From: a virus
Virus record (IMG/VR): IMGVR_UViG_3300008110_000312
Span: 5,538-33,867 of that record
Direction: 5' to 3' (one strand)
Length of the DNA: 28,330 bases
The notes under the pieces are model-generated. The model made no database searches. It was not told the DNA's origin and saw only the letters and a program-made list of their open reading frames with translations. Positions 4,355-24,932 of the stretch are shown one piece after another (positions within the stretch are counted from its first letter, which is position 1; each line of letters opens with the position of its first letter). A program made the translations under genes and the position numbers.

Positions 4355-5020
4355 GGTTTTATGTTTTGGTTTAATAATTTCAGTTTGTTTTGTTTCAATT
4401 TTTCCATTGTATCTTGCAGCAATAGAAAATGCGTGTTTTTCAAAACTTTCAATCTCAGCTTTAATACTTGGAGTGATTGTTATGATTTCATTGATTAAGC
4501 CAATTTGCTTAGCTTCTTTAGCAGTTAATGGTACATCAATTCTGCTATCCATAGAAAATACTTGATCTAAAGTAATTCCCTTATCTTTTACACTTTTTAA
4601 ATTTTCAAATTTTGCAACATCAACCTTAGCCTCAAAAGCCTTACGAAGATTTTTATTAATGTTTGCAAGATTTGTTTTCATTGCATCAGTGAAGTAATTC
4701 TGATCACATTCAATCCAACTTGGGTAAGCAGCACGATGTAAAAGAAATTGAGTAACATCTAATGCACTGCAATTTTCAGCATAGCAATTAAAGTATAATC
4801 CCATTGAATAACTTTTACCGTCATTCTTAACAGATTTTTTACCTTGTAATTCTGCATACTTTGCAATCATTCCCCATCCATATTCAGGAGATCCACCGGG
4901 AGTATTTAAACGAACAACAATATCAGAACTTACATCTTCAGCTAAAGCCTCATTGATTTCCTCAATGAACTCAGCAGATGTACACTCATCAATTCCTCCG
5001 TATATTAAAACCTCTGGCAT
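4016..5020 (-). CDS. S49/ClpP-class prohead protease fused to scaffold, lambda gpC-like
   Basis: This 334-residue protein has an N-terminal serine-protease domain of ClpP/S49 type: VRLNTPGGSPEYG (residues 36-48), a nucleophile candidate Ser72 in SYSMGLYFNC, and His95 in FLLHRAAY. After about residue 220 the sequence changes to a charged, Ala/Glu/Lys-rich helical tail, which is a scaffold domain as in lambda C/Nu3. The protein directs shell assembly and is then removed by proteolysis. It is shorter than lambda gpC (439). It is the first gene of the head operon after the 70-bp divergent element, whose minus-facing motif ends seven bases before this ATG. The acidic third catalytic residue could not be assigned. 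Confidence 0.85.
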   Translation of the reverse strand: MPEVLIYGGIDECTSAEFIEEINEALAEDVSSDIVVRLNTPGGSPEYGWGMIAKYAELQGKKSVKNDGKSYSMGLYFNCYAENCSALDVTQFLLHRAAYPSWIECDQNYFTDAMKTNLANINKNLRKAFEAKVDVAKFENLKSVKDKGITLDQVFSMDSRIDVPLTAKEAKQIGLINEIITITPSIKAEIESFEKHAFSIAARYNGKIETKQTEIIKPKHKTMTIEILKAEHPDVFAQALALGVAQEKDRVNACLVFIDADAKGVKEAIASGNPLSATQMAEFTMKAVNAATLAKIEAENPETKTTASGAAEKTEKEKEIAAFAASLDKKLGLK

Positions 5021-5026: not shown

Positions 5027-5096
5027 TGTAAAAATAGAGGGGTAAAAAATAATTTTAAAAAAAGTTACGTTAATTGGGGAATTTATTTATACTTAC
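5027..5096. promoter_or_regulatory. 70-bp divergent control element, copy A
   Basis: This stretch matches 18804-18873 at 69 of 70 bases; the only difference is G5076 versus A18853. It lies between the protease gene (minus, ATG at 5020) and the RHH gene (plus, ATG at 5101). Promoter-like motifs point outward at both ends: TATACTTAC (5088-5096) towards the RHH gene and TATTTTTAC on the minus strand (5028-5036) towards the head operon. Inside is the inverted repeat AATT-GGGG-AATT (5072-5083), whose arms are kept in copy B while the differing base falls in the spacer. It is a candidate divergent promoter with operator. Confidence 0.75.
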
Positions 5097-5100
5097 TACA

Positions 5101-5298
5101 ATGGCGAAAGGAACATCAAAAAATTCTGAGACATCAGATTTTAGAATACAAAATAAATCAATGAAGCTGAAAATGGATATTATAAATATCGCAGCTAATA
5201 AAGGATTGACGGTAACAGCATTCCTGCGAACCGTTATAATTGAAACTAGAAATAGTTATCCTGAATCAATGAGACAACCTTTAAAAGATTCGTTATGA
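5101..5298 (+). CDS. Small ribbon-helix-helix (CopG/Arc-like) DNA-binding regulator
   Basis: The 65-residue protein starts at ATG 5101; a TTG start at 5074 would put coding sequence into the 70-bp element and is rejected. The layout fits the RHH fold: a strand DFRIQ (13-17), helix A of about MKLKMDIINIAANKG (21-35), a turn LTV, and helix B TAFLRTVIIETR (39-50). Such proteins dimerise and insert paired strands into the major groove at short inverted repeats. The gene stands alone on the plus strand inside the head operon and is convergent with the portal gene 50 bases away. The identical 70-bp element before it and before the glycan operon suggests autoregulation and control of that operon. 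This is inference; no operator has been tested. Confidence 0.65.
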   Translation: MAKGTSKNSETSDFRIQNKSMKLKMDIINIAANKGLTVTAFLRTVIIETRNSYPESMRQPLKDSL

Positions 5299-5348
5299 AA
5301 AAATTATTATCTATGTGAGGCTTTTTTTTGTTTATATCGTATCCAACC

Positions 5349-6992
5349 TTACGGGGCTGGATTTTGAACTGGAGGTTGAGCTACTTCAATCCCGGCAGTT
5401 TTACTTTCTTCCAATTCTTTAGCATATTGTTTCATATTTGCTTTTGAACTTCCGCCATTAACAACCTCAGTTGCACTTTCAAGTGTAGTCAATGGCAATG
5501 AAGCACCGGTATCACCTAATTTTAATCTTTCAGCATTTACTTCTTTTAATGGATCAATATGTGGAACGTTATCTCCAACCCATCTTGCATTCCTAAATGA
5601 AGCTAATACCATATAATTATTTTGTCTATCAGCAATCATATAACCAGGAGCGCTAACTTTATTTTGTAAGATCTCCAAGTGTAACCACATTTCATAAATA
5701 GGTTGATTGAATGATAAAGAAAAATTATATCGTTCAACTAATAACGTGTGTTCCCAATCTTTAATTGCAGCCCTTGCGGAACTAAATGAAGTATCGTATT
5801 TACTCATTGCAACATTTGGAGGAATGCCAATAGCTGCACATACTAAATCAAAAAACACAGAATAAAAGTCTTTAAAATATAACTCAGCTTTTGACTTTTC
5901 AACAGGTTCTAATTTTGAACCTTGTGTCATATTAAAAACTTGTTTATTTGTACTTACAGCAACTTTATTTGCTATTTCAGTATTCTTAACATCTACCGGA
6001 ATAGTCCCATCGTTTGCGCTTACATCGCGCGCTTGAACAATTTGTTGTAAATATGGACTTTCGCCGGTACTATTAGCTTCATGTACAATTTGTAAAGTTG
6101 TTTTTGCACTTTCTTCAGCAGTTGCAATAGTCGCTTCTTTGTAACGATCCATTTTAGCAAGTGTCTCAAATAACCCAGCAAGTGCCGGAATACATCTTGA
6201 ATTATCTAAACGGTATTCAAGTCCTCCAACTAAATAAGCAACTGTTAAACCAGTAGTTGGACTTTTAGCTGCAATTCTGCTAAAAGTTAAATCAGCATTT
6301 CTAACATGATACGCAACATGTTCACCGGCATCATTCATCTCAACGCCATTCATTATTCGATTACCGTTTGCTAACTTTTGAGGGTTCCAATCATTTCCAT
6401 ACATTGGTGACATTACATGTGTACCATCAATCAATTGAGTTTTTAAAATTCCCTTAATAACACGAAGCACAACAAGAACATCACCTGCAATTTTGGAATT
6501 TTTATAACATGCAGATTCTAGTTTAGATAAATTTCGCATGCCGTCATAAGTTGACATTTTAGATTCTTTATAAATGCTAAAACGAGACTCAACCAAATCT
6601 GAAAATGCTTGAGGATTAATTTTAATTCCCTCACTTAAAAGAACTGATTCATTTGGTTCTGATTCTAATTTTAAACCTCTGCCAATTGTCCATACCGTCA
6701 TTCTATTAATGATGATCTGAACAACTTCATTAGTTAAATAAAATCCCCAACCACGTTCGCGTAACTGAACATAATTTAAAATGTATTGTTGAGCCGGGCC
6801 AATCTCACCCAAATTCTTTTCACCATCAAAACTTGAAACAAATAACAATCTTGAATTACCGCTATTTGAAGAAAAGTAAGCAGATGATTTAGGTGTTACT
6901 AAATTTTCACTATTTGATTCTTGAATAGCTTTTGATTTTGGTTTAAAAAAATCAATTGGTGAAGTCCACCATTTTTTATTAATAGTTTCCAT
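5349..6992 (-). CDS. Portal protein, lambda gpB-like
   Basis: With the ATG at 6992 the protein has 547 residues, close to lambda gpB (533). This start is preferred over 7028 because GGAGG lies eight bases upstream and the overlap with the previous gene drops to 14 bases. The sequence follows the lambda portal family: 'RERGWGFYLTNEVVQIIINRMTVW', the gpB-like 'GDVLVVLRV', 'IDGTHVMSP' and 'NGVEMNDAGEHVAYHV' strands in the middle, and 'GIPPNVAMSKYDTSFSSARAA' later (the conserved region before the crown). It forms the dodecameric ring at one vertex through which terminase drives DNA. The C-terminus is proline-rich (QPPVQNPAP). Confidence 0.85.
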   Translation of the reverse strand: METINKKWWTSPIDFFKPKSKAIQESNSENLVTPKSSAYFSSNSGNSRLLFVSSFDGEKNLGEIGPAQQYILNYVQLRERGWGFYLTNEVVQIIINRMTVWTIGRGLKLESEPNESVLLSEGIKINPQAFSDLVESRFSIYKESKMSTYDGMRNLSKLESACYKNSKIAGDVLVVLRVIKGILKTQLIDGTHVMSPMYGNDWNPQKLANGNRIMNGVEMNDAGEHVAYHVRNADLTFSRIAAKSPTTGLTVAYLVGGLEYRLDNSRCIPALAGLFETLAKMDRYKEATIATAEESAKTTLQIVHEANSTGESPYLQQIVQARDVSANDGTIPVDVKNTEIANKVAVSTNKQVFNMTQGSKLEPVEKSKAELYFKDFYSVFFDLVCAAIGIPPNVAMSKYDTSFSSARAAIKDWEHTLLVERYNFSLSFNQPIYEMWLHLEILQNKVSAPGYMIADRQNNYMVLASFRNARWVGDNVPHIDPLKEVNAERLKLGDTGASLPLTTLESATEVVNGGSSKANMKQYAKELEESKTAGIEVAQPPVQNPAP

Positions 6993-7320
6993 TAATATTA
7001 CCTCCAGTAAAATTTTTACCATCAACAAGTCTTACAATTCTACCTTGTCGATTATTATTTAATTGTGCAATAACCATCTGTCTAGTTTTAAACATATCAT
7101 TATATGCTTTTTGAAGATCTCCTAAACTACGATACATTACTTCGTTTTTTGTTTGACCTGTATCTAATTTATAACTTTCAAAATGGCCTGAAGAATTAGC
7201 TGTATTTATTGCCATAAGCATTCCAACTAAAATAGTATCCATTAAATCTATTTGCGCCTGCAATCCAGTTGCACTAGAAATAATTGCCGGAATACTTGTA
7301 TAAACTATGTTTTGACTCAT
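6979..7320 (-). CDS. Small gpW-position head protein
   Basis: The 113-residue protein precedes the portal gene, as W precedes B in lambda, and overlaps it by 14 bases. After a hydrophobic helix (IDLMDTILVGMLMAI, about 24-38) it carries YKLDTGQTKNEVMYRSLGDLQKAY (50-73), a pattern of the type found in gpW-like head-joining proteins, and then a basic end QGRIVRLVDG. It may help close the head after packaging. Direct homology to gpW is uncertain. The preceding 30-base gap carries a promoter-like motif, so this may be the first gene of a transcript with the portal. Confidence 0.5.
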   Translation of the reverse strand: MSQNIVYTSIPAIISSATGLQAQIDLMDTILVGMLMAINTANSSGHFESYKLDTGQTKNEVMYRSLGDLQKAYNDMFKTRQMVIAQLNNNRQGRIVRLVDGKNFTGGNINGNY

Positions 7321-7324
7321 TTTG

Positions 7325-7333
7325 CTAAGTATA
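7325..7333 (-). promoter_or_regulatory. Promoter-like TATACTTAG motif four bases before ATG
   Basis: Read on the minus strand, TATACTTAG is followed by CAAA and the ATG at 7320. The TATACTTA core and the four-base spacing are the same as at the plus-facing ends of both 70-bp elements. The rest of the 70-bp element is absent here. Confidence 0.4.
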
Positions 7334-7350
7334 AGTTAATTTTTTAAATG

Positions 7351-7848
7351 TTATAACGTTTTTATTTCATTAATTTTTGAAGCTGAAATGTTCAATGATA
7401 TTAGAGCCGGAGTATATGATCCGGGAGCAATGGCATTAATAGCAGCTGCAATTTTTACTAACTCAGCATTAATTAAAGCAACTTCATTTTGTAGTCCAGT
7501 GTTTAGCGGAGTATATCTTACAGCATTATGAATAGTACCTCCTAATTGCATTGTTCCATCACTTTTTAACCAAACAAAAGTTTTTAAAGTTCCAGTTGAA
7601 TCAGTCGAGAATAAACGAGTTTCTCCAATTTCAGCAAGCCTGTTTTTATTCAAATAACCGATTATATATTCATTTCCATCAAGCTCAGTCTTTGTATAAA
7701 TAGCAACCATGTCTTTAACGGGATTACTATCAATTCCATAAGAGCTTGCTTCTATTGCGGTTCTAACATCTGATTTCCCGTTCCAAGCCTTTACGACTAA
7801 TCTTTTAAATGTATCAAAAGATGTCCCTGCTACTTTTAATATCTTCAT
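7351..7848 (-). CDS. Putative baseplate spike protein, Mu gp45-like
   Basis: The 165-residue protein has the ending typical of gp45/gpV-type spikes: EYIIGYLNKNRLAEIGETRLF (60-80), STDSTG, LKSDGTMQLGG (95-104), then NAVRYTPLNTGLQNEVALINAELVKIA (108-134) and a short C-terminal beta segment ending in SKINEIKTL. In Mu the spike sits under the hub and pierces the outer membrane. The gene overlaps the hub gene by ATGA, which matches the Mu order P-45. The apex histidine motif of longer spikes is not evident, so the protein may rely on another tip. Confidence 0.6.
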   Translation of the reverse strand: MKILKVAGTSFDTFKRLVVKAWNGKSDVRTAIEASSYGIDSNPVKDMVAIYTKTELDGNEYIIGYLNKNRLAEIGETRLFSTDSTGTLKTFVWLKSDGTMQLGGTIHNAVRYTPLNTGLQNEVALINAELVKIAAAINAIAPGSYTPALISLNISASKINEIKTL

Positions 7849-8999
7849 AATCTCGGTAAGTTTTCATGACTATTTACAAAGAAATTAGTAATAGTTTCTT
7901 TGCTGTAAACGTAAGTAGGAACACAAGTTAAAATACTTTTTTCACTATCGGCATCTGCCGTAAAATCAACACTTTCAATAAACCATTTTACCGATTTATA
8001 TAAAAATATATTTCTGTTTTTTACCTTACAAGTATTATTCGGCCTAATAAATTTACCGTTTAACATTCCACGATCTAAAGTAATTTTAAGAACAATGTTT
8101 TTTATTTCTTTTCTTAATTCATTTTCTGCCGCTTCCTGAATAGTAACATCATCACCTGAAGACAACACAATTACTTTAGGTCTGAATACTGCTGCTACCG
8201 GTACAAATGGATTTCTTATTGTATATTCACCAGCATTACCTCCATCTTGACTAGCTTGCATTATAACAGTAATATGTGAATGCATTGGTTGGCCGTTAAA
8301 ATTCAAATCCATTTCCATTATACCAACCATTCCTTTTTCTTTATCAAAATCAAAGATTGGTTCACTCTCAGTATTAGCCTCAGTGATCAATAAATTACCG
8401 GCAGGATTATGGGATAAAACTAAATTTTTTTGAGTAGCTAAACCCGTTAAATAAGACTGTATATTTTGACTTTCTTTAGCAGTTGACTTGGTTATATTTT
8501 TATCTACTTTTTTAGCAATAGCGCTGCCAGCATCAATTTGAGCAATATCAGCAATAATTAACTTAAACTGATTTGCTTTACTTCGAATATGAGTATTAAA
8601 ATTATTTAAAATTCTTTGTGCAATTTGTCTAAAACTTAATCCGTTACTTTCTAATGGATACATAGATGTTGGAATATCACAGTCAGCAAAAACACCCGAC
8701 TTAGAATAGCCACCAATATGGACAAGTTCAGGCTTAGGCGTATCTTTAAACGCCTGCGAAAGCATATAACCATTGATCAATAATTCATCATCATAATAAA
8801 TACTGCATTCATGGTAATGACTTACGCATGCTATTTCTGCATGTTCAGGGTTATTAGGATCAAAGTAAAAAGAGAAACTAAAGGTATCCCCAATAGCATC
8901 ATATTTTAAATTCATAGCAAAACTATTCCAATACTTTACGGTACGAATTACGTCTCCGGTATCAGATTGCCTTGTATTTATTTTTAAATATATTCCCAT
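7845..8999 (-). CDS. Baseplate hub protein, Mu gpP / late-control D-like
   Basis: The 384-residue protein shows the hub pattern: an N-terminal domain with 'FSFSFYFDPNNPEH' and 'ECSIYYDDELLINGYMLSQ' (about 38-84), a middle segment 'YPLESNGLSFRQIAQRILNNF' (98-134) like the 'g.tl..ia..l...fg' of the gpP/gpD family, and a C-terminal barrel with 'IKWF.ESVDFTADAD' type strands. Hubs form the trimeric centre of the baseplate between tube and spike. It has a TAATG overlap with the gpN-like gene and ATGA with the spike gene. Confidence 0.75.
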   Translation of the reverse strand: MGIYLKINTRQSDTGDVIRTVKYWNSFAMNLKYDAIGDTFSFSFYFDPNNPEHAEIACVSHYHECSIYYDDELLINGYMLSQAFKDTPKPELVHIGGYSKSGVFADCDIPTSMYPLESNGLSFRQIAQRILNNFNTHIRSKANQFKLIIADIAQIDAGSAIAKKVDKNITKSTAKESQNIQSYLTGLATQKNLVLSHNPAGNLLITEANTESEPIFDFDKEKGMVGIMEMDLNFNGQPMHSHITVIMQASQDGGNAGEYTIRNPFVPVAAVFRPKVIVLSSGDDVTIQEAAENELRKEIKNIVLKITLDRGMLNGKFIRPNNTCKVKNRNIFLYKSVKWFIESVDFTADADSEKSILTCVPTYVYSKETITNFFVNSHENLPRL

Positions 9000-10219
9000 T
9001 AAATATAGTATGTTATTTTTTTACCCTTTTCAATTCCTAACATATCTCTGTAAGTAAAATCGTTATTATCAATCAACTCGTTAATATTTGAATCATTAGG
9101 ATCTAAACTATAAAGTCTGTGTGTTAGCGTGATAATATTTGTATCTTCAGTTAAAATTAAACTTCTTTCTTGTCGCCCGTTTAAAGCGATTTGCAATAAA
9201 CTACTAACAGTGATATTTACTAACTGAGTTAATAAATTTAAAGCATCAAATCCCGGAACATAAAAAGCAGGGTTGCTACCATTCAAATCTTGCAACGTAT
9301 CTAAATCAACTAAAAACTGTCTGTAATTTTCAAGTAACGTGTCAACTATATTTATTGCCGAATTTGAATTTCTGTAATTACCACTTAATGGAGTTGAAGC
9401 CGCTAAACACATTGATGAAATAATTGCATTCCCTTGAATTTCGTAAATCTGTTTTGATGGTACTGTATAAAGTCCGTTAATTGTAAGTCTTAAATTATTG
9501 AATTGAGCAACTAACGTATTAACCCTACTCTTAACATCTGCTGTAAATTTAGCAGGTAAGGTCAACATTGCTATTGTTGTTCTCATTGCTAATAATGGAC
9601 TAGCAGTAGCCGTATTAATGTAAGATGAAGCTGTACTAAAAGCATTGAAATAATCTTGAGCCTCTTCCGGTATAGTAATTATTTTTAATCCTTGTTTATA
9701 ATTTTGAGCCGTTACAATGTTTAAAGTATTTACATCTGTAATTGTTGGAGGCTGCGTTAACTCAGCTTCATTTGCAACATCTAATTTTGTTTTAATTTGA
9801 GCAATAGAATCTATCGGGTCAATTACCGTAATTGGGTTATCTTCTGTTATTGTTTCAATGGCAGTACAAGTAACTTTTGAATAGTTCATTGTTGTATTAT
9901 CAACATTTAAACTCATCAATTGTGCTATAATCACATCATATAAAGGATGCTCAATAACCATTGGACGCATATCACTACACGATCGCTCAAATTTAGCGTA
10001 ATCATCTAAATGATCAGGGCCTTGGAAATAAAACTCTAAAGGAAATTTACGACCTAATACTTTTTTCTTTTTCGCTAAAGTTCCGTTAACTTCTAAAAAC
10101 GAAAATTCAGATCCATGCCATTCAATAGATTTACTAGAGTTTACCCAAATAACAGTATATACTTTTCCGTCACCAGTAGTAATACTTAATTGTTTTGTTA
10201 TCTTGTCTTCCCAACTCAT
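8999..10219 (-). CDS. Baseplate/tail protein with DNA-circularisation N-like domain (Mu gpN-like)
   Basis: Using ATG at 10219, which overlaps the upstream stop as ATGA, the protein has 406 residues; the longer frame from 10225 begins with TTG. The N-terminal 120 residues resemble the DNA_circ_N/Mu gpN domain: W at position 3, SFLEVNGTLAKKKKVLGRKFPLEFYF (40-65), the DDYAKFE segment, and IEHPLYDVI (89-97) in the place of the family's 'l.HP..G' motif. In Mu-like phages this protein joins tape measure, tube and hub. The C-terminal half is helical. The name of the family is historical; a structural role is much more likely than DNA circularisation. Confidence 0.7.
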   Translation of the reverse strand: MSWEDKITKQLSITTGDGKVYTVIWVNSSKSIEWHGSEFSFLEVNGTLAKKKKVLGRKFPLEFYFQGPDHLDDYAKFERSCSDMRPMVIEHPLYDVIIAQLMSLNVDNTTMNYSKVTCTAIETITEDNPITVIDPIDSIAQIKTKLDVANEAELTQPPTITDVNTLNIVTAQNYKQGLKIITIPEEAQDYFNAFSTASSYINTATASPLLAMRTTIAMLTLPAKFTADVKSRVNTLVAQFNNLRLTINGLYTVPSKQIYEIQGNAIISSMCLAASTPLSGNYRNSNSAINIVDTLLENYRQFLVDLDTLQDLNGSNPAFYVPGFDALNLLTQLVNITVSSLLQIALNGRQERSLILTEDTNIITLTHRLYSLDPNDSNINELIDNNDFTYRDMLGIEKGKKITYYI

Positions 10220-10941
10220 TTCCAAACTTTTGCTAATTGGCGTTCGCCTTGTTTAATATAAAAATCATCAAGTTTTTTTTGAGTGATCAAAGAAGCTTCT
10301 TGCATAAAATTAGTTGGCTTTACTTTTACCTTTCTACCTTTTTTAAATGAATATAGTGGTGTAGCTTTAAAATTTGCTTTTTTACTTCTTAAATTGCTTT
10401 TTGGAGCAGTATCAATTCTAAATAAAATATCACCTCTTAAAACAAAACCACCTCGACCGGCAACAGATGCTGCAATAACAAATTTTTCTCTTTGGTTTTT
10501 ACCAATTGAATCGTTAACATTTATAATCCTATTAATTTTACTTAATTGCGCATTAGGCTTAACTAAACCAGTATGTGTTTTTCCTTTACGAGCAAATACA
10601 GTTGGAATAAAACTCCTGTTATCAATTACCCCTCCGTGTTCTTGCTCTTCCAAATCATCAACTGAATGATTTGTTCCTCCTTTAGAAACAAATCCAACAG
10701 AAGATTTCATTGTGCTAATATTAAACCCTGTGGCTTTTTGATAAGTACTATTTGCTTTAAAGAAATTCTTTTCACGATTAATAAAATTATTTTTAGAAGA
10801 TCGTAACATTGTATTGGTTTTAACATCAAATGCAGCATCATTCAACGTACCACAAACTGCTGCTGGTAACGCTGACTTTCTTAATTTCTCTAACTTGTTA
10901 GTCATAGAAACAACCGCATCCGTATTGATGTTTATTCTCAT
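10216..10941 (-). CDS. Putative minor tail/morphogenesis protein (gpZ-like)
   Basis: The 241-residue protein is strongly basic. The N-terminal helix 'MTNKLEKLRKSALPAAVCGTLNDAAFDVKTNTM' (13-45) is of the kind seen in lambda gpZ/HK97 gp10-like proteins. The C-terminal 'ATPLYSFKKGRKVKVKPTNFMQEAS' matches the 'aLy.f..grkvk.kp...f' ending found in many tail-completion proteins. The middle is rich in Ser, Asn and Gly. Its place between fibre and gpN-like gene is not that of Mu. It is coupled on both sides (TAATG and ATGA overlaps). The call is tentative. Confidence 0.45.
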   Translation of the reverse strand: MRININTDAVVSMTNKLEKLRKSALPAAVCGTLNDAAFDVKTNTMLRSSKNNFINREKNFFKANSTYQKATGFNISTMKSSVGFVSKGGTNHSVDDLEEQEHGGVIDNRSFIPTVFARKGKTHTGLVKPNAQLSKINRIINVNDSIGKNQREKFVIAASVAGRGGFVLRGDILFRIDTAPKSNLRSKKANFKATPLYSFKKGRKVKVKPTNFMQEASLITQKKLDDFYIKQGERQLAKVWK

Positions 10942-11825
10942 TAATCTAAATAAAAACTTATTCCATCAAGCCTAACATTTACAGTAGGACCAGCAAGAGT
11001 TCCTGGATTTACATAAACATTTCCATTTGTATAAACAGATCCTTCTACTGCAATATAAGTAGTGCCATCTTGAGCCATCAAATTAAAATATCTTTGATAT
11101 GAAGGTCTATATCCGGCCGGTAAATTAAATATTACTCCTGATGTCAAAGTTGCAACACTTACAACACCTTGCAATGTTACTAATCCTTCATAATTTTTTC
11201 TATATTTTACAGTACTAGTTGCTGTCCAACTATTTAAAAAAGAAGAAACGGTTATTGGGGTAACAACAGGTGTTCTGAAAATATTCACAACATTCCAGCA
11301 CGGAGAAGTAGGGCTATTTAAAAAACTCGCTTCTAATAAAACACTTTCATTAGTCTTTAAAGTTAACGTTCCAGTACTTGGCTGAAAAACATCAGAACCA
11401 TCAGGAACTAAAGCTAAATCACCGGCACCAGTATTTAATATTGTTATTTTTTTAAAATTATTTAAAGTAGTTAATGGCGGTAAAATAAAACCACCAGCAG
11501 CGGCATTAATCTTAATAACTAAACATCCAACATCGGCATCTGTTAAATTAGTAGTTCCAGCGCCATAAAATCTTTCTTCACGATATGAATTTGCCATATC
11601 TAAAAACGCTTCCATGTACTGAAAACCATTTACTTGATCTTCAGGAAAACCATTTGGAGTAATACTACTTAATGCTGCTAATCGCGCAAAGAACTGATGA
11701 AAGTCAGCGTACACATCTTTATTTATCGGAGTACCATCTCCAATACCAGTATTATCTTTTATATTTCCGTAAGGAAAAGCACCGCCTGGTGCTGTTACAT
11801 TTGTTTTACTTGCTAAAGGAATCAT
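10941..11825 (-). CDS. Baseplate-attached tail fibre / receptor-binding protein
   Basis: The 294-residue protein follows the gp48-like gene, where Mu has its fibre gene. The N-terminal part (PYGNIKDNTGIGDGTPINKDVYADFHQFF, about 18-46, and 'ITPNGFPEDQVNGFQYMEAFLD') is of a kind used for docking to the baseplate. The middle is a beta-rich shaft ('GCLVIKINAAAGGFILPPL'). The C-terminal 95 residues, beginning about 'SFLNSW.A', hold a small knob with 'LVTLQGVVS', 'GVIFNLPAGYRPS' and 'GSVYTNGNVYVNPGT', a common receptor-binding tip. It is short for a fibre and probably trimeric. Confidence 0.7.
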   Translation of the reverse strand: MIPLASKTNVTAPGGAFPYGNIKDNTGIGDGTPINKDVYADFHQFFARLAALSSITPNGFPEDQVNGFQYMEAFLDMANSYREERFYGAGTTNLTDADVGCLVIKINAAAGGFILPPLTTLNNFKKITILNTGAGDLALVPDGSDVFQPSTGTLTLKTNESVLLEASFLNSPTSPCWNVVNIFRTPVVTPITVSSFLNSWTATSTVKYRKNYEGLVTLQGVVSVATLTSGVIFNLPAGYRPSYQRYFNLMAQDGTTYIAVEGSVYTNGNVYVNPGTLAGPTVNVRLDGISFYLD

Positions 11826-11827
11826 GT

Positions 11828-12535
11828 TTATATATAATTAATGAATAAATAACCTACTGTTTGAACTTGTTTTATGTTTAAAATTAACTGCCTAAATTCT
11901 TGCTCTCTTGATGCTGTTACATTGGCGTAAGTACCTAATACAGATCCGCCAATAAAAAATGTACTTCTTAAATTTGACCCAACATTAAATCCAACATCAA
12001 CGGAATTATAAATACTATTTGCTATCACGCTGTTTATATAAATACCACTTTGTACATCGCTATGCTGGTGATCTCCATGTTGAACTTGTGATGAGATATT
12101 CGCATTTAATGTAACCGGATTATATTGACTAAATCCAGTTGGATAGTTATAAATAATATTTTCATGCACATAAACATTAAATCCAGCATCTTGTAATTGT
12201 TTTTCTAAATTAAGATAATGTCCTTTTGCAGGATTAACACCCGGCGCTTGCATCTTTCTTTTAATAGCCAACATTCTACTTGCTAAAGGAGTTGCAAGGT
12301 TTGTAATTAATCCTAACCTTCTTTCCCAATCAGTTGCATCATCGCTGGTGAAATTTGAATTGTCAGGTAATATGCTGTATAAAATAGATACAGCATCTTC
12401 ATAAGCCTGAGCTTCACTTACTGCCAACGCCTTATGTAATCCTTCAAAATAACCAAAGAATGGCAGTTTCCAAGCCCTACCGGTTGGATAAAGTTGGCGT
12501 GTTAATTTTAATATTTTATCTCCTATGTAACTCAT
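11828..12535 (-). CDS. Baseplate protein, Mu gp48 / YmfQ-like (DUF2313)
   Basis: The 235-residue protein carries the family's N-terminal mark LYPTGRAWKLP (15-25), followed by SILPDNSNFTSDDATDWERRLGL (53-75) and 'KRKMQAPGVNPAKGHYLNLEKQLQDAGF'. In Mu-like tails this wedge protein joins the gpJ-like protein to the fibre. The C-terminal half is variable and includes a His-rich stretch (HGDHQHSDVQSG, about 153-164). It starts with a TAATG overlap with gene J. Confidence 0.75.
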   Translation of the reverse strand: MSYIGDKILKLTRQLYPTGRAWKLPFFGYFEGLHKALAVSEAQAYEDAVSILYSILPDNSNFTSDDATDWERRLGLITNLATPLASRMLAIKRKMQAPGVNPAKGHYLNLEKQLQDAGFNVYVHENIIYNYPTGFSQYNPVTLNANISSQVQHGDHQHSDVQSGIYINSVIANSIYNSVDVGFNVGSNLRSTFFIGGSVLGTYANVTASREQEFRQLILNIKQVQTVGYLFINYI

Positions 12536-13710
12536 TATAAGTAAACAATTGTAGGGTTCAAATAAGGAATGTTGCCATTGTTAAATGTATAAGTGCTCAT
12601 TGAAACTGCATCTACAGTAAATGTTACACTTGTAAAAACAGCCCCAGGTTTTGCTGTTATAATTGATCCAATTAATTTATTTGTATCAATTATATCATTC
12701 TTATCAGTTAACACATCTGCACCCGCAACGAATGGTCGCATAGCATTTACTGTGTCAGTAAGCGCGGTTAATAAAGTTGCTTGTATAGCTGGCGTTAATC
12801 CTGAGTAACCAGTAATTGTAATTACAATTGTCTTAATTGTAACTGGCAAATAATTAACCATTGCTTGTAAAGGTCTTCTACCTCTTTCGTTTAAGGCTAG
12901 TGAAGTATCCGGATTAAAATCAACTACAGTTTCAACGTCAGTTAATATTTGTGCTGTTGGAGTTCCTTTACCATCTATCGAATCAACTACTGTAGCTTCT
13001 ACATATAAATCTATTTCTCCTTGAGTTCCACTTTTAGCATAAGGATAAACTCTTTCTACTCCTTGAGCATCTTGTGACCATAAACGATAATCTGTTGCGG
13101 CACCACCTTGAGCCTCTAATCTATATGATAAAATTACATCCGTACGATACGCCTCTATTGTTTCAGCCGCTAATGGCGGCACGATTACACTAAATACACT
13201 TGTTGAAGCAACACCGCTATTAACTAACGGTATCGGGGCTGTTGGAGTTAATGTATCCAATAAGTCTAATTTACCTTCAGCCCCTAACGTTAAAGCCCTT
13301 ACTGTTATATAATCAGTAGCCGTTAATAACGTATAAGCATTGTCTAATACATATAAAATTCCCGGATTTAAACTAGTATCATCACTTTTAAATGTTGATT
13401 GAGCAGGAATAACAGCTCCAATTGTACCAACTACTTTAATTGAATACTGAGCGGCAACAGCTGCGAATGGAACTCTTCCTAGTTTGATTGTTCCAAAACG
13501 GATTAATGTCTCTTCATCGCACGTATCGGGAGCAACGTTTTTTTGTAAAGCTGCTATTACCAAATAATATATTTTTAATTTTGCAGCATGAACAGCCGCA
13601 AAGCATCTTAGTACAGCTTTACCAAATGGATTAATATTAACCCCATATTCAGTGTTGATGTCAGCGATTATGCCAGTGTAAAGCGAATTTAATGTTGGAA
13701 TTGTTATCAT
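12535..13710 (-). CDS. Baseplate wedge protein J-like (Mu gp47)
   Basis: The 391-residue protein has the Baseplate_J pattern. The N-terminal helices end in 'ADINTEYGVNINPFGKAVLRCFAAVHAAK'. The middle holds 'APDTCDEETLIRFGTIKLGRVP', 'TLGAEGKLDLLDTLT', and the hallmark 'ETIEAYRTDVILSYRLEAQGGAATDYRLWSQDAQGVERVYPYAK' region (about 182-226) with TQGEIDLYVEA after it. The protein forms the wedge arms that open during sheath contraction. It overlaps its W-like upstream partner by ATGA, the usual W-J pairing of contractile tails. Confidence 0.85.
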   Translation of the reverse strand: MITIPTLNSLYTGIIADINTEYGVNINPFGKAVLRCFAAVHAAKLKIYYLVIAALQKNVAPDTCDEETLIRFGTIKLGRVPFAAVAAQYSIKVVGTIGAVIPAQSTFKSDDTSLNPGILYVLDNAYTLLTATDYITVRALTLGAEGKLDLLDTLTPTAPIPLVNSGVASTSVFSVIVPPLAAETIEAYRTDVILSYRLEAQGGAATDYRLWSQDAQGVERVYPYAKSGTQGEIDLYVEATVVDSIDGKGTPTAQILTDVETVVDFNPDTSLALNERGRRPLQAMVNYLPVTIKTIVITITGYSGLTPAIQATLLTALTDTVNAMRPFVAGADVLTDKNDIIDTNKLIGSIITAKPGAVFTSVTFTVDAVSMSTYTFNNGNIPYLNPTIVYL

Positions 13711-14201
13711 ATAAAAAAATCATTGTTAAAATCTATTGCGAAAAAATCACCGCTTGCTTTTTTAATAAAATTAATTATTGCCACTTTTTCATCACCGGTT
13801 TGAAAAACACCTCTTATCTCAACCGATACTTTATTTGTTTCAGGAATTGAAACGACAACAGTTAAAGTAACACCTAAATCAGAAAGATATTTTAAATCTG
13901 TTTTTATAGCATTTTCAATTTTAACACGGCCAATACTTGTTAATTCAGTTGTATTTAATATTCTTTCAGTATTTGAATTAAACTGTAAAGCAGCCTGAGA
14001 CGGGAACAATAAACTATTACCCCACCAATCCTTTGAGTCGGCCAATGTTATTGTAGCCTCTGTGTTTTGTTCTACATTACCCCCAAACATTGATAAATAA
14101 AACTGATTTTCATTACCATTAACAATTGCCAAATCATTACCGAGCAACTGTAAGTCGCCTCCGTTTAATGTTTCAATTATTGCTAGATCAAAAAATCCCA
14201 T
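13707..14201 (-). CDS. Baseplate wedge protein W/gp25-like (Mu gp46)
   Basis: The 164-residue protein shows the Mu gp46-like order: an N-terminal 'GDLQLLGNDLAIVNGNENQFYLSMFGG', then DSKDWWGNSLLF (55-66), and a helix 'IGRVKIENAIKTDLKYLSDLGV' followed by beta strands with 'KVSVEIRGVFQTGD'. gp25-type proteins join the wedge to the first sheath ring. It lies two bases after the tape-measure stop and directly before gene J, as expected. Confidence 0.75.
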   Translation of the reverse strand: MGFFDLAIIETLNGGDLQLLGNDLAIVNGNENQFYLSMFGGNVEQNTEATITLADSKDWWGNSLLFPSQAALQFNSNTERILNTTELTSIGRVKIENAIKTDLKYLSDLGVTLTVVVSIPETNKVSVEIRGVFQTGDEKVAIINFIKKASGDFFAIDFNNDFFI

Positions 14202-14203
14202 AT

Positions 14204-16276
14204 TTATTTTTTAGTACTCATTGTTGAAGTCATTTGAGGCATCACACTAACGCTTTTAGTTCCACCACTATTAAAATCTACTGGTACATTTCCATCATTT
14301 TTAACTGTTATTGTAGCATTAGCATTAGCGTTATTTGTTGTAGTCGTATTTTCTGCCTGAGCCACTTTTGTACTTTGAAAATTCATAGCATCTTTAACAC
14401 CAGGTTGTGATGTTACCATTTTCATTGCCCATGAACTTTCAAGATCTTTAATTTTTTGCTGACGATTTGCAGACTGAGCCGCCTCACTTCCTCCAACATC
14501 TGCAGTACTTCCTTTTCTAGTCAATACATTATTAGTATAAAGAGCGGCATTCATAGCAGATAAATTAGCTAGTGACTGATTTTCTTTAATATAGTTCTGT
14601 CTATCCTTAGCGCCTTGCGCCATTTTCTTTTTTTCATTGGCATAAGCAACATCAGACATTCCACCAGTTGCATTCTGAAAACCATACCATATAATTTTCA
14701 TTCCATCAACAGTAGTAGCGAATGCATTCGACATTACTCCCCACATTGATTTTGCTTGATAAACAAAAGCATCAATTGAATAACCCATTCCGGTCATCAT
14801 TATATCCCATTGATCACCCCAGCCTTGATATTGACTTGCTAAATACGCAAGCCCTGCAACTAGTCCGGCAACGGCTGCTATTACTAATCCAATTGGGTTT
14901 GCAGTCATTGCAGCATTCCATAACCACTGAGCTGCCGTAACTGCTTTTGTAGACCATTCATAAGCCTTTAATGCTAAAGCACTTTTACCAACTGCTACAG
15001 ATACTATTCCAGTTAAAGCACCTTGAATACCTAAAGCAATATTTAAACCGCCAGTAACTAAAGAGGTTGCTATTATAGAAGCTTTCCATATTGCAAAAAA
15101 TTTAATAACATTTATTCCAACTGCAACAATTGTATCTAAATTATCAGTTACGTAGCTAATTGCACTTTTAGCACGTTCTAATCCTGAACTTGCAGCATTA
15201 CTACTAGTAAGCATATTAGTCCAAGCATTACTCAATTCAGACAATCTATTAGAAAGTGTATTTGAATTTATACCTGCTGCTAATTGAGCTTCTTTAGTTC
15301 CAGTAACTCCTTTTGTATATTCTTTTATTAAGTCTGTATTATTTAATAAAATTCTTCCAACTCCTAAATTTATCAAACCAAAAGTATCAGTTACATAAGC
15401 ATCTTTTTCTTTTGCTGTTTTTAGTTTATCAAACTTTACCTTTGCCTCTTCTAAAGCATCATTTATTTTAAATTGACCAGAAGCGTACCCCATTCCTGAT
15501 TTTTGTAAATGAACTAATGAACCTTTTAATTGAGTTCCAGCCTCTGCTCCAAATATTGAAAATTTTCCAAGCGTTTGAACTAACCCTACCGATTCTTCAA
15601 GTGTAACGTTTGCTCCTGCCGCAACTGATCCAAACGTTACAAACGCCTCTGCCGTTTGAGTTATACTTGATGCTCCAACAGCCTGACCTGCGGCTAATAT
15701 ATTTATAGTTTTATCTGCTTTATCTGCGGAGTAACTAAATTGGTTCATTATGCCGACTAAATTTTCAGCACTTACACCTAATTCATCCTTACTTGCTTTT
15801 GATAAAGTAATAGCAGCGGCTGACACCTGACTTAATCCTTTTGCTGTATCTGCAAATTTTGAGTTTAACCCTGCTATCTTTTCAAATGAAGTAGCAACAT
15901 CTACTGTACTTTTTCCGGTTGATTTTGCAACTGAACCAATAGCTTTTTCAAATTTAGAAAAATCAGCATCATTTAAGTCTGAAACTATTGTTCTGAAACT
16001 TTGAACAGCCTCTTCATAATTCATTATTGAATCAATAGAAGATTTTCCTAACATAAAAGCCCCTCCAACAACTGCCGCAGTTGATGCCATTGATAGCATT
16101 TCTTTTGTTGCAGAACTTAACCCCGGAGTTAATTTTCTAAACGCTCTTTCACTTCTTGCTCCTAACGCTTCTGCTTTTTGGGTAAATCCATCTAAACCTC
16201 TACCCATACTGCGTAACGATGGAGACATTTTGTCTTCAGCGGTAAATATGCTAGGTATTATAAGTGGTTTTGACAT
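14204..16276 (-). CDS. Tape measure protein
   Basis: The 690-residue protein follows the frameshifted chaperone, the usual place for the tape measure. Residues about 85-335 match the TP901-type core (YEEAVQSFRTIVSDL, 'STVDVATSFEKIAGLNSKF', 'AGANVTLEESVGLVQTLGKFSIFGAEAGTQLKGSLVHL'). A hydrophobic block lies at about 383-482, including NAAMTANPIGLVIAAVAGLVAG, and probably enters the host membrane during DNA delivery. The C-terminus is polar and Asn/Thr-rich. At the usual 0.15 nm per residue it predicts a tail of roughly 100 nm. The ATG follows two tandem stop codons of the chaperone extension. Confidence 0.85.
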   Translation of the reverse strand: MSKPLIIPSIFTAEDKMSPSLRSMGRGLDGFTQKAEALGARSERAFRKLTPGLSSATKEMLSMASTAAVVGGAFMLGKSSIDSIMNYEEAVQSFRTIVSDLNDADFSKFEKAIGSVAKSTGKSTVDVATSFEKIAGLNSKFADTAKGLSQVSAAAITLSKASKDELGVSAENLVGIMNQFSYSADKADKTINILAAGQAVGASSITQTAEAFVTFGSVAAGANVTLEESVGLVQTLGKFSIFGAEAGTQLKGSLVHLQKSGMGYASGQFKINDALEEAKVKFDKLKTAKEKDAYVTDTFGLINLGVGRILLNNTDLIKEYTKGVTGTKEAQLAAGINSNTLSNRLSELSNAWTNMLTSSNAASSGLERAKSAISYVTDNLDTIVAVGINVIKFFAIWKASIIATSLVTGGLNIALGIQGALTGIVSVAVGKSALALKAYEWSTKAVTAAQWLWNAAMTANPIGLVIAAVAGLVAGLAYLASQYQGWGDQWDIMMTGMGYSIDAFVYQAKSMWGVMSNAFATTVDGMKIIWYGFQNATGGMSDVAYANEKKKMAQGAKDRQNYIKENQSLANLSAMNAALYTNNVLTRKGSTADVGGSEAAQSANRQQKIKDLESSWAMKMVTSQPGVKDAMNFQSTKVAQAENTTTTNNANANATITVKNDGNVPVDFNSGGTKSVSVMPQMTSTMSTKK

Positions 16277-16279
16277 TTA

Positions 16280-16845
16280 TTATTTTTGTGGACTCATTCT
16301 TTTTATTAATTCTAAAACTCTATCGTACCAATAAACAATTCCATTGTAATCTTGTCTATCAAAAAAAAGGCTACCCAAATCTTTAGGCAGCCATTTAAGT
16401 TCTAATACGACAGTAGTTATTACTGTATCTATACTCGCATCGTCTTTATCTAGGCCATAAAAAAAAACGATAAATAGTCGGCCAATGAATTATCTTCAGA
16501 GTCCATTTCTTTAATTATTGCCGAACTTTGTCCAGTTAATGCAGAAATGTAAGCGATAGATTGTTCAAGTGGTCCTGGCGTTTTAATGTTTTGCGTTCTA
16601 TCTTGAATTTCCTTTAAGGTTAAACGCGGCTTATATTCTAATTTCTTAACGGTACCAATAGGAAATTTTAAAGTATGCGAGAAAATAAAAGTTTCAGGAT
16701 CTAAAACTAAAAGACCTTCCATCATTGCTTCAACTAAATAAGCAATATTGCCTTTTAAAGTTTCACGTTTCTTTGGTGAGATTTTTTTATAATCTAACCA
16801 TGAGTTAACTTCTTTTTCAGCTTGTTCTTTTGATATAGTGTCCAT
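16280..16845 (-). CDS. Tail assembly chaperone, -1 frameshift fusion (188 residues)
   Basis: Slipping back one base at the T9 run gives 129 shared codons plus a 59-codon extension read from 16459 to a TAA at 16280-16282. I translated the extension base by base and found no stop inside. It reads YGLDKDDASIDT..., then LELKWLPKDLGSLFFDRQDY and VYWYDRVLELIKRM, ending in SPQK. A second TAA follows, then the tape-measure ATG at 16276. In contractile and siphophage tails the longer form links the chaperone to tail subunits. The extension has no start of its own worth using and was not visible as a separate long ORF. Confidence 0.8.
16450..16845 (-). CDS. Tail assembly chaperone, unshifted product
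   Basis: The 131-residue protein lies between tail tube and tape measure, as gpG-type chaperones do in lambda and gp41 in Mu. It is mostly helical and ends in 'LADYLSFFFMA'. The three Phe codons are the T9 run where a -1 shift can occur. It starts with a TAATG overlap with the tube gene. Chaperones of this kind coat the tape measure before the tube polymerises and are absent from the virion. Confidence 0.8.
   Translation of the reverse strand: MDTISKEQAEKEVNSWLDYKKISPKKRETLKGNIAYLVEAMMEGLLVLDPETFIFSHTLKFPIGTVKKLEYKPRLTLKEIQDRTQNIKTPGPLEQSIAYISALTGQSSAIIKEMDSEDNSLADYLSFFFMA
16459..16467 (-). other. -1 ribosomal slippery site (T9)
   Basis: Nine Ts on the minus strand are read in frame as TTT TTT TTT after TCG. 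They contain the heptamer T-TTT-TTT, which fits the X-XXY-YYZ rule for -1 slipping. The zero frame stops two codons later (ATG GCC TAG), while the -1 frame stays open for 59 codons. Confidence 0.8.
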
Positions 16846-17252
16846 TATGCTTGTTTAGTTAATTGACCACCACCTGATAATTTTAAAGGGAATGTTGCTG
16901 CATTTCCATTTCCGGCAACATCACCAACCGGACGACCGGTTCCACCATAAATAGCTCCGTTAATATGAGATACTGTATAATCAGCATCTAAAGGATCACC
17001 TGCCAAAGCAGATAATTTCTCTAAATCTAAATTTACATTCATATCCCACGCAACAGTAACGTCTAATGACCAACGTTGACGGTTTAACTGAGTGATCATT
17101 CTACCACCTCCATCAACACCATTCATGTCATCATTAGAGCGAACGCCACCTAAATTAAAGGTGCTATCCTCTGCTGCTTTTATAAAAATAACACCACTAC
17201 CTAAAGTTGGGTGATTATATGTAATTTCTGTTATGTCTCCACCTACTGGCAT
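16845..17252 (-). CDS. Tail tube protein
   Basis: The 135-residue protein comes 12 bases after the sheath gene and just before the chaperone, the standard position for the tube. It begins 'GDITEITYNHPTLGSGVIFIKAAEDSTFNLGG' and has 'DDMNGVDGGGRMITQLNRQRWSLDVTVAWD', beta-strand patterns typical of tube monomers of Mu gpM type. The tube forms stacked hexameric rings inside the sheath. The C-terminal 'ATFPLKLSGGGQLTKQA' closes the fold. Confidence 0.8.
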   Translation of the reverse strand: MPVGGDITEITYNHPTLGSGVIFIKAAEDSTFNLGGVRSNDDMNGVDGGGRMITQLNRQRWSLDVTVAWDMNVNLDLEKLSALAGDPLDADYTVSHINGAIYGGTGRPVGDVAGNGNAATFPLKLSGGGQLTKQA

Positions 17253-17264
17253 CGTATGTTATTT

Positions 17265-18785
17265 TTAAGTGTTTAATGTTCCAAAATTAAATCCCATTGT
17301 CGCAGTAGTTGCACTAATTCTAGCAACTCCACTACGTTTAATGCTAAATGTGGTTTCAAATCTGTTAGGATTAACAGAACTGATTCCAACTGATAAAGAT
17401 GAATTACTAAATGCCGAATCAACAATTAATCCACGCGAAACTAAATCATCAAAATATTTTTTAATAATTTGTTTCCATTGTTTTGGTTTAACTACATTTT
17501 GACTTGAAACAATATCTTCATCATTTGCAATAACTTTTCCAACAACATAAAGTTGTTCAAGTAAATAATAACCATAACGGATATTCCAATCAATCATCAT
17601 ATCTCTACGATATCTGAATTGAGGTGGAATTTCTCCATCAGGATGGTAAGTTGTTACCGGATCTTTAACTTGATATTTACCGCTAACTAAATCAACTGTT
17701 GAACAGCCTTTTTTAACGAATAAATCACGGTTGTTATAATCTGCCATTGAACCAATCAATGTTGGTGTTGGCATGTCAGAATAAAATTTATTTAAAATAT
17801 CTAACTCAGGTGTATTTTGAGCCGTTACAGCAAATAATACAGCATCATTAGCAGCAGCTTCCATTGGTAAACCTGTAGAAGCCGGAGCTGGAGATATTGA
17901 AATTGTACAATTTAATTTACGAGAATCTGTAATTGAACTAGGATCATCAGCAATACTTCCTGTTAAGGCGATTGTTGGCTTCATTACAATTCCAGTATAA
18001 CGACCTGTAGGATTTGTATTGTCAGGAATACCATTGAATGCTTCTAAAGCATCCATGATACTTGTAACAGTACCATAACTATTAATAGTGATTGTATTCC
18101 AATCAGAACCATAAAGTGCTAAAGCTGGTGCAATAGATGGAGTTCCTGATCCTGATACTGTTGTATTAACCCAATAAGAAATTCCAACAGGATTATTATT
18201 TGTATCAACAGAAACTGTAATATCATTCGATGTTAAACCTTTCCATTTTGCGGTAAGAGTTGTAACATAATCATTATCTGAAGAAATTACCGGAGCGCCT
18301 AAAACAGCATTTACAACATCTGTAATTTTAGATGTAATAATTGCGATAGTATCACCGGCAACAACGTTAATGTTATAAAATTGAGAATCAACATTTGTAC
18401 GACCAGCAATTTTAATTGTATGTGTTGCGTTTCCTGTTGCTACACCTGCTGGTGCAATTTGAATAACTTTAGCAACTGAACCAATTGCTGCTGCTTGTGG
18501 ATAAAATACAATTGGAATACCACCTAATCCACCACCATTTAAAGGCAATGCGATACGCGCGATATGATAAGCAGGCGAACCATAACCATATTTTGCACCA
18601 ACTGCTTGTGCAGATGTTGCTTGATAAGGTGTTAAATCCAATGTTGCTTGATTTGCTGTATTAGCTTCACAAAGAACAGCTACCCTTTGTGGTAGGTTTG
18701 GTGAACTAGTTTGAAAGTTTCCTTTGGCTATTAAGTATCCAACTACTGCGGATATTCTTTCTGCCCCTACTGCGTTTGATGCCAT
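17265..18785 (-). CDS. Contractile tail sheath protein, Mu gpL-like
   Basis: The 506-residue protein has the sheath pattern: an early 'RVAVLCEANTANQAT', AKYGYGSPAYHIARIALPLNGGGLGGIPIVFYP (63-96), an inserted beta domain (about 105-220), 'ITINSYGTVTSIMDALEAFNGIPDN', and a conserved C-terminal domain with 'YHPDGEIPPQFRYRRDMMIDWNIRYGYYLLEQLYVVGKV' and 'KYFDDLVSRGLIVD'. It marks the virion as a myovirus. It is the first gene of the tail operon and starts 18 bases from copy B of the 70-bp element, whose minus-facing motif TATTTTTAC could be its promoter. Confidence 0.85.
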   Translation of the reverse strand: MASNAVGAERISAVVGYLIAKGNFQTSSPNLPQRVAVLCEANTANQATLDLTPYQATSAQAVGAKYGYGSPAYHIARIALPLNGGGLGGIPIVFYPQAAAIGSVAKVIQIAPAGVATGNATHTIKIAGRTNVDSQFYNINVVAGDTIAIITSKITDVVNAVLGAPVISSDNDYVTTLTAKWKGLTSNDITVSVDTNNNPVGISYWVNTTVSGSGTPSIAPALALYGSDWNTITINSYGTVTSIMDALEAFNGIPDNTNPTGRYTGIVMKPTIALTGSIADDPSSITDSRKLNCTISISPAPASTGLPMEAAANDAVLFAVTAQNTPELDILNKFYSDMPTPTLIGSMADYNNRDLFVKKGCSTVDLVSGKYQVKDPVTTYHPDGEIPPQFRYRRDMMIDWNIRYGYYLLEQLYVVGKVIANDEDIVSSQNVVKPKQWKQIIKKYFDDLVSRGLIVDSAFSNSSLSVGISSVNPNRFETTFSIKRSGVARISATTATMGFNFGTLNT

Positions 18786-18803
18786 TTTTAAAGAATTATT
18801 TTC

Positions 18804-18873
18804 TGTAAAAATAGAGGGGTAAAAAATAATTTTAAAAAAAGTTACGTTAATTAGGGAATTTATTTATACTTAC
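18804..18873. promoter_or_regulatory. 70-bp divergent control element, copy B
   Basis: It matches copy A (5027-5096) at 69 of 70 bases, in the same orientation, 13,777 bases away. The ATG of the first glycan-operon gene (18878) is in exactly the same register as the ATG of the RHH gene. On the other side the sheath gene starts at 18785, with 18 bases between, instead of six in copy A. The inverted AATT arms are at 18849-18860. Identity drops right outside the 70 bases on both sides, so the match is not an extension of coding similarity. Confidence 0.75.
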
Positions 18874-18877: not shown

Positions 18878-19558
18878 ATGACATTATTAAACATCTATCA
18901 AGTATATTTTAAAGAAGAACAATTAAGCTCTATCGACTATATACCTTATTACAATGATGATTGCACTCCTTATTTTGAGAATAGTGTTATTGTAGATTTA
19001 ATCAATTCTGATGCTCACAGACAAAGTCAATACTTTGGAGTACTTAGTCATAAATTCAGATCGAAAATTACTGAAAGAAAATGTGATCATTGGATGAACT
19101 TGCCAAACTTTGCTAATCATTCAAGAAGTAATTTTACACCTCAGCAAATTGATTTTGTTTTAGATAGGTTTAAATTTCCAGTTCTAAATTTAATGCAGCA
19201 TCCATCACATGATCCTATAACATACGGAGCAAAGTTTCATAGAGAGTTACCTAAGTTTTTCAAAGAAATAACTAATAAGATTGGTTACGAATGGAAACCG
19301 GAAATATTTGAAAACATATTTTACTCAAATTACTTTATCGCTAAGAGTCATATTTATGAGCACTATGTAAAATCAATGTTAGAGCCCGCTATTAAAATAA
19401 TGGATGGTATGCCTGAATTATGGCAAAATAGTGGATATCCTTTTGCTCTTCCTGATGATTTAAAAAATAAATGGAATGTTAACTTTTATCCTTACCATCC
19501 ATTTATACTTGAAAGACTATTTAGTTACTACTGTCACATCAATGAAATAAAAATATGA
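18878..19558 (+). CDS. Unknown protein, first gene of glycan operon (possibly glycosyltransferase-like)
   Basis: The 226-residue protein is not firmly recognised. It is soluble and rich in aromatic residues and His. It begins 'LLNIYQVYFKEEQL', has 'SQYFGVLSHKFRSKI' (about 50-64), and ends with 'HPFILERLFSYYCHINEIKI'. Phrases of the kind 'YfGvlS.kF..K' and a final 'ERLFS' occur in polysaccharide-cluster proteins, so a sugar-transfer role is possible, but no DxD motif stands out. It overlaps the next gene by ATGA. Its ATG lies four bases after copy B of the 70-bp element and has no Shine-Dalgarno sequence. Confidence 0.6.
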   Translation: MTLLNIYQVYFKEEQLSSIDYIPYYNDDCTPYFENSVIVDLINSDAHRQSQYFGVLSHKFRSKITERKCDHWMNLPNFANHSRSNFTPQQIDFVLDRFKFPVLNLMQHPSHDPITYGAKFHRELPKFFKEITNKIGYEWKPEIFENIFYSNYFIAKSHIYEHYVKSMLEPAIKIMDGMPELWQNSGYPFALPDDLKNKWNVNFYPYHPFILERLFSYYCHINEIKI

Positions 19559-20765: not shown

Positions 20766-20766
20766 T

Positions 20767-22088: not shown

Positions 22089-22107
22089 AAAACTAAAAAA
22101 ATATAAA

Positions 22108-22341
22108 ATGGGATACACAAATTTTACAGTTGAAAAACTAGAAGATATTATTGAAGTGCATAAACCAAAGTCAATTTTAGATTTAGGCGCTCAAAATATG
22201 TACAATCAAGCAGAAGTTCCTGCACCGTATGCAAAAGAATGGTATGAATCAAAAGGAAATATTTATTGCTCATTTATAAAAAATCAACCTGAATTTATCA
22301 CACTTGAGCAATTCAAAACATTAGATTTTAAACTAAGTTAA
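22108..22341 (+). pseudogene. Truncated SAM-methyltransferase remnant
   Basis: The 77-residue frame starts at ATG 22108; a longer frame from 22054 overlaps the previous gene. It has the first half of a methyltransferase nucleotide site, SILDLGAQNMYNQ (about 22-34), and PAPYAKEWYESKGNIYC. It then jumps to IKNQPEFITLEQFKTLDF, which reads like the C-terminal tail of such enzymes. The acidic ribose-binding strand and the catalytic part are missing. The most likely cause is an internal in-frame deletion. A natural mini-protein is possible, because both ends are intact and the stop overlaps the next start (TAATG). Confidence 0.55.
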
Positions 22342-23740: not shown

Positions 23741-23747
23741 ACTGATT

Positions 23748-24924: not shown

Positions 24925-24932
24925 TTTTGAAA

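Follow-up and report, generated by a model that had tools for sequence, protein, structure and literature searches.

Why should a tailed phage keep the same 70 bp at two distant places, each time at the start of a structural operon? The question is raised by a stretch of 28,330 nucleotides of viral DNA (IMG/VR record IMGVR_UViG_3300008110_000312, positions 5,538 to 33,867), called the window below, which comes from an uncultivated Bacteroidota phage with a contractile tail and a lambda-type head and carries genes for terminase, portal, protease, decoration, major head protein, sheath, tube and baseplate. Nearly all head and tail genes lie on the minus strand, and two plus-strand islands break them up: a lone 65-amino-acid gene (5101-5298) and a glycan operon (18878-24505). 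One copy of the element is placed between each island and its divergent late operon. We consider it probable that the two elements are copies of one operator-promoter unit, where a ribbon-helix-helix (RHH) protein, the product of the lone gene, would bind, activating the head and tail operons together and repressing its own gene. The case is built on the repeat itself, on genome-specific operators that are alike at both sites, on their linkage to the RHH gene, on a fixed distance to the late -7 box and on the prediction of an RHH-like fold.

Two copies of one control element

As a preliminary description of this DNA had stated, positions 5027-5096 and 18804-18873 have one orientation, lie 13.8 kb (13,777 bp) apart and are identical at 69 of their 70 bases; the element is the longest repeat of the window and occurs exactly twice in the 33.9-kb source record. 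The sole mismatch is G5076 in copy A against A18853 in copy B. Each copy separates a plus-strand gene or operon from a divergent minus-strand late operon, again as first described: the protease/decoration/capsid operon (start codon at 5020) and the 65-amino-acid gene (ATG 5101) flank copy A, the sheath/tube genes (18785) and the glycan operon (ATG 18878) flank copy B. The gap from the end of the element to the plus-strand ATG is four bases at both, TACA at copy A and GACG at copy B, and the outward promoter-like motifs reported for the ends are present, TATACTTAC on the plus strand and TATTTTTAC on the minus strand. The pattern TATWNTTAC-N4-ATG is found in the window only at these two sites (0.15 expected).

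5027..5096, element copy A: divergent control region of the protease operon (minus) and the RHH gene (plus); 69/70 with copy B, 70/70 in the relative G005
18804..18873, element copy B: divergent control region of the sheath operon (minus) and the glycan operon (plus)
5064..5081, operator core of copy A: GTTACGTTAATTGGGGAA, centre about 5072.5, equivalent in position to the cores of relatives, among them TTCCGTTGATAACGGAA (G001), CGGATTATATCCG (G003) and GTCCCTAAATTGGGGAA (G031)
18841..18858, operator core of copy B: GTTACGTTAATTAGGGAA
5101..5298, plus strand: RHH regulator gene (65 amino acids), assigned from an AlphaFold2 model, Foldseek, a profile match to ORF56 and positional homologues

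The preliminary description had put the mismatch in the spacer of an AATT-N4-AATT inverted repeat with conserved arms. This repeat is present in copy A (5072-5083), but comparison with the relatives shows it not to be the conserved core, and the mismatch falls in the right half-site of the core GTTACGTTAATTGGGGAA.

Copy A is kept at 70/70 in G005, although nucleotide identity there is 89% for the protease, 92% for the portal and 94% for the RHH gene. An exact 30-base edge of the element, searched in viral contigs, matched near-identical relatives of copy A alone, and among these the context of copy B is present in this record only; a megablast against isolated phages gave no match. Contigs L003 and L005, from other samples, stop at their 3' ends 1 nt beyond the element, and L030 (G003) starts at its 5' end within its own operator; since repeats break assembly, these ends are indirect evidence of two copies there.

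Operators shared within genomes and not between them

The wider operator family emerged by comparing positions and not by searching sequence. Relatives were gathered among IMG/VR contigs via sheath and protease, and the upstream regions of these two genes were compared contig by contig; the RHH-bearing relatives are all metagenomic contigs, many of them fragmentary. They carry a common dyad operator at the same two places, protease/RHH and sheath. Its copies in one genome are identical or almost identical, whereas those of different genomes are unlike one another. Words common to both sites measure 26 bp in G001 (TAAAAAAAGTTCCGTTGATAACGGAA), 33 bp in G011 (AAAAAAAGAGTCCCAAACTTTGGGACTATAATC), 34 bp in G003 (one copy right at the contig end), and 28, 95, 22, 46, 31 and 22 bp in G009, G010, G014, G021, G025 and G031, respectively, as against 7-16 in 304 cross-genome pairs. 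With one mismatch permitted, G017, G028 and G032 are added, and so is G033/G015, for which one sample supplied the protease site and the sheath site on separate contigs. In 14 of the 16 lineages that carry the RHH gene, the two sites of a genome match each other better than any of the 378 cross-genome pairs. The operator cores were picked by eye from the common words, a choice of our own that was made before spacing to the -7 box was measured, and at the asymmetric sites (window, G009, G033) the centres are approximate.

The common piece is usually the dyad with its near surroundings, set in unrelated flanks, for example TTCCGTT-GAT-AACGGAA or AGTCCC-N7-GGGACT, which argues for selection on the core and not for simple copying. 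It is on this point that a reading of the repeat as a recent segmental duplication or a mobile promoter cassette, with no common regulator and a merely historical likeness, becomes very improbable. The length copied, 70 bp in the window and about 95 bp in G010, does exceed what an operator needs, and the three contigs that end or begin at the repeat are what a repeat produces; but other lineages have in common only a core of about 20-35 bp, lineage-specific, with diverged flanks and in every case at these two genes; the sequences searched contain no further copies except a third one, which G003 and G014 carry in front of the portal operon. A transposon relic was likewise considered and rejected.

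This third copy has a TAnnTTTG box 37 bp away, like the late sites described below; all genomes were examined for a common operator at the portal (p6979) promoter, and these two alone have one. The portal-operon promoter of the window (7326-7333, minus, upstream of 7320) has TATACTTA, as do the RHH and glycan promoters, and no operator copy.

The sheath sites of G010, G014, G021 and G025 are preceded by same-strand genes, with no divergent gene, and have retained the operator; the glycan operon is thus not the reason for copy B. The proposal of a duplicated divergent promoter/operator holds for the common operator, whereas the conserved unit consists of operator and late promoter at fixed spacing, and divergence is dispensable. 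Judged from the sequences compared, the late promoter is the conserved target, and divergence and the glycan operon are optional.

A fixed distance to the late promoter

In Flavobacterium the sigma-A -7 box is TAnnTTTG at -12 to -5 (PMC9723704). Candidate boxes were located on both sides of each copy:

5029..5036, minus strand: TATTTTTA, candidate -7 box for late transcription of the protease and capsid genes, with a start predicted at about 5024; 36.5 bp from the operator centre
18806..18813, minus strand: TATTTTTA, candidate -7 box for late transcription of the sheath and tube genes, with a start predicted at about 18801
5088..5095, plus strand: predicted -7 box of the RHH gene, TATACTTA; predicted start about 5100 (near-leaderless)
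18865..18872, plus strand: predicted -7 box of the glycan operon, TATACTTA; predicted start about 18877

At the place of the RHH box, G001, G003, G004 and G005 have TATACT[TC]. On the late strand, 18 of 24 independent sites have a box with at least 5/6 of the fixed TAnnTTTG bases (the window box TATTTTTA has 5/6) whose start lies 36.5-38.5 bp from the operator centre; 1000 shuffles average 4.3 such sites and reach at most 8. This test used fixed centres; an earlier information-content profile, for which dyad centres had been set automatically, was smeared by the jitter of these centres. The operator centre thus lies at about -49 relative to the predicted late start, while the distance from box to start codon is free (about 5 to 47 nt). 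The TTG that Bacteroidota promoters have at -33 is seen at only one of 22 late sites, and its near absence fits dependence on an activator. Among 25 sheath regions outside the set that defined the rule, 13 have a dyad about 37 bp upstream of the -7 box at p<0.05, most exactly 37, in a set that is not wholly independent (L050 is close to G017 and L055 to G010). The operator mostly overlaps the promoter on the RHH strand, which fits autorepression.

The RHH gene and its product

Homologues of the 65-amino-acid gene occupy the same place in 20 other contigs, and a profile built without the G032 homologue still recovered it (83.7 bits). The comparison with related phages proposed in the preliminary description came out in its favour: these phages again have the core at both late operons, beside the RHH gene, and every contig that spans the protease island and shares the operator has this gene, none having been found with the one and without the other.

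AlphaFold2, run on the alignment, gave a predicted local distance difference test score (pLDDT) of 82.6 overall and above 90 in the two-helix core, with helices at residues 21-34 and 38-51 after an N-terminal ribbon segment. This segment was not modelled as a strand, as expected when a dimeric sheet is modelled as a monomer. Nearly all Foldseek matches are RHH proteins; their E-values are weak, as a chain of only about 45 residues would lead one to expect. The profile matches the RHH protein ORF56 (E 2e-4); Pfam gave no match to the window protein as a single sequence. The predicted protein thus has the layout of the RHH class, an N-terminal beta-ribbon followed by two helices in about 45 residues.

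Across 15 lineages, similarity in the ribbon, the DNA-contacting part, correlates with operator similarity (Mantel r 0.28, p 0.035) and similarity in the helices does not (r 0.04, p 0.40), in a small sample of related lineages and with similarity measures of our own choosing. Sequence comparison is in this respect suggestive only of a ribbon that reads the operator.

Two RHH domains are fused in tandem in G032 (L114 7889-8269) and apparently also in G009 (L089 RHH island), and G017 (L096 RHH island) has two adjacent RHH-like open reading frames (ORFs). The tandem protein of G032, modelled alone by AlphaFold, gave a poor model (pLDDT 59) that was not used.

A type II toxin-antitoxin pair was rejected, as the RHH gene of the window stands alone between the portal and protease genes, with no toxin gene beside it; this look-up covered the window.

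How the system may work, and what else could explain it

We propose that the 65-amino-acid RHH protein binds the central operator at both copies, and that the operator, centred about 49 bp upstream of the late start (head at A, tail at B), stands in for the missing -33 box. Most likely, binding would recruit or activate the RNA polymerase of the host and thereby turn on the head and tail genes together. With the operator overlapping the promoter of its own gene, the protein would also limit its own synthesis. Binding, activation of the late strand, repression of its own strand and their timing in infection are what we infer.

In this phage the divergent glycan operon may respond like the RHH gene, because its -7 box and spacing copy those of that gene. 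Its regulation by the element is possible in the window and not general: the idea of one unit tying together head, tail, regulator and glycan genes is supported for the two late operons and the RHH gene, but the glycan neighbour is interchangeable among relatives (gly1, gly8, another gene or none).

The main rival is a repressor acting on both strands, in the manner of Arc or CopG, which would hold its own gene and the late operons until titrated or diluted and would activate nothing. Most solved RHH structures matched by our model are repressors or antitoxins, and in most lineages operator and RHH-strand promoter overlap. The rigid 36.5-38.5 bp to the late -7 box and the scarcity of TTG at -33, however, are expected of an activator site and unneeded for a repressor site, and the operator is retained at sheath sites without a divergent gene. 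We hold a pure repressor to be unlikely, though it deserves to be taken seriously, and prefer an RHH late activator with self-limitation.

Several observations weigh against this activator. From a site centred at -49, a regulator might also act as a repressor. The operator dyad of the window itself is weak (about 5/9 pairs), its RHH/glycan box TATACTTA has just 4/6 of the fixed TAnnTTTG bases, and on the RHH strand the position of the promoter relative to the operator is not fixed across lineages. G022 and G026 have the RHH gene and no clear common operator. G020, G027 and G029 lack the RHH gene and, apart from a T-rich 21-mer in G027, a common operator, but they are imperfect controls, as they also differ in gene order and may be fragments.

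That the element works as nucleic acid, whether RNA element, terminator, packaging signal or replication signal, has very little probability: some operators are hairpin-like palindromes beside T-runs (G010, G014), but an Rfam scan of the window gave no match, the palindrome at copy A-type sites lies between diverging promoters and not 3' of a gene, and an origin or a packaging site would not be expected two or three times over, each time where a structural operon begins. A terminator and a packaging site were both considered and rejected.

Comparison with known regulators

The site bound by Mor of phage Mu is a dyad centred at -43.5, which takes the place of the -35 element (PMC4390567); Mu C acts at several late promoters, its sites lying upstream of -35 (PMC4461284). 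An activator of the Mor/C type would need such a site as is seen here, near -49, at fixed spacing and substituting for the -33 box at several late promoters. The proposed regulator would resemble these in being a small phage protein for phage promoters, with a dyad upstream of the box in promoters that lack -35/-33; this is a working resemblance and not membership. It differs from them in its predicted RHH fold, in a site near -49 relative to a Bacteroidota -7 box and in an operator sequence that changes from phage to phage, and the Mor family of Pfam gave no match among 16 RHH members.

With P22 Arc, CopG and the antitoxins FitA and VapB it shares predicted fold, size and apparent autoregulation from a gene-adjacent operator. 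Unlike them, it would serve two or three structural operons at fixed promoter spacing, is likely activating and has no neighbouring toxin gene in the window. AmrZ, an RHH protein of Pseudomonas, is described as both activating and repressing (PMC3325190), a precedent for the pair of roles proposed here. AmrZ is a bacterial virulence regulator, unlike the phage late-gene regulator considered here. We know of no comparable fixed promoter spacing for it.

The nearest isolated relatives of the tail module are the Flavobacterium phages FCL-2, V156 and FL-1 (Ficleduovirus) and the Cellulophaga phage phiSM, with a sheath identity of about 47%. Unlike the window phage, these have head and tail genes in one direction, and no RHH homologue turned up in V156, phiSM or the part of FL-1 that was searched. 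Keyword searches of the open-access literature yielded no account of a system of this kind, although one may exist.

Other features of the window

The structural genes and the glycan operon that surround the two copies are as follows (phrog_49 and phrog_29 were listed together for decoration and major head protein, phrog_165 and phrog_4699 for sheath and tube, in that order).

4016..5020, minus strand: head maturation protease, which opens the head operon, phrog_94; position equal in relatives
3548-4006, minus strand: head decoration, phrog_49
2467-3519, minus strand: major head protein, phrog_29
17265-18785, minus strand: tail sheath, phrog_165, heading the tail operon
16845-17252, minus strand: tail tube, phrog_4699, with the sheath gene at the start of the tail operon
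18878..24505, plus strand: glycan operon, with GT2-type glycosyltransferases and FkbM and TylF methyltransferases (Pfam)

The orientation and first gene of the glycan operon differ among relatives. Homologues of the glycan genes between terminase and sheath persist in G001, G003, G009, G021, G022 and G025 with changing order and orientation, like an exchangeable cargo island. An exact 25-bp direct repeat, TGTTTCAGCGTTGGGTTTTTTGAAA, terminator-like, at 24545-24569 and 25217-25241, flanks a small plus-strand ORF (24917-25180). Between a 131-amino-acid ORF and the tape measure gene, 16276-16450 (minus) is an open stretch without its own ATG, the product of which is apparently kept as protein in G001 and G003 (LKWLPKDLG...DYxG); it is possibly a frameshifted extension of a tail chaperone of the gpG/GT type. 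In the source record (L035), a run of N at 5519-5537, a scaffold gap, directly precedes base 1 of the window.

Significance

Little is known of how structural genes are switched on in tailed phages of Bacteroidota, and the related isolates examined show no such regulator. The system described here offers a testable model, with a regulator of about 65 amino acids, a short operator and a promoter of fixed geometry. The chances seem to us about even that it represents a class of RHH-fold late activators in uncultivated Bacteroidota myophages, marked by a joint change of regulator and operator so fast that almost every lineage has a site sequence of its own, by sites matched at two or three operons and by a fixed promoter distance. 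Words that are common to two operons within a genome and different between genomes provide a route to phage operators that requires no experiment. Over a dozen diverged regulator-operator pairs from one locus could be used to learn how RHH ribbons read DNA and, if such a fast-changing class is real, it would be a natural library of RHH recognition pairs.

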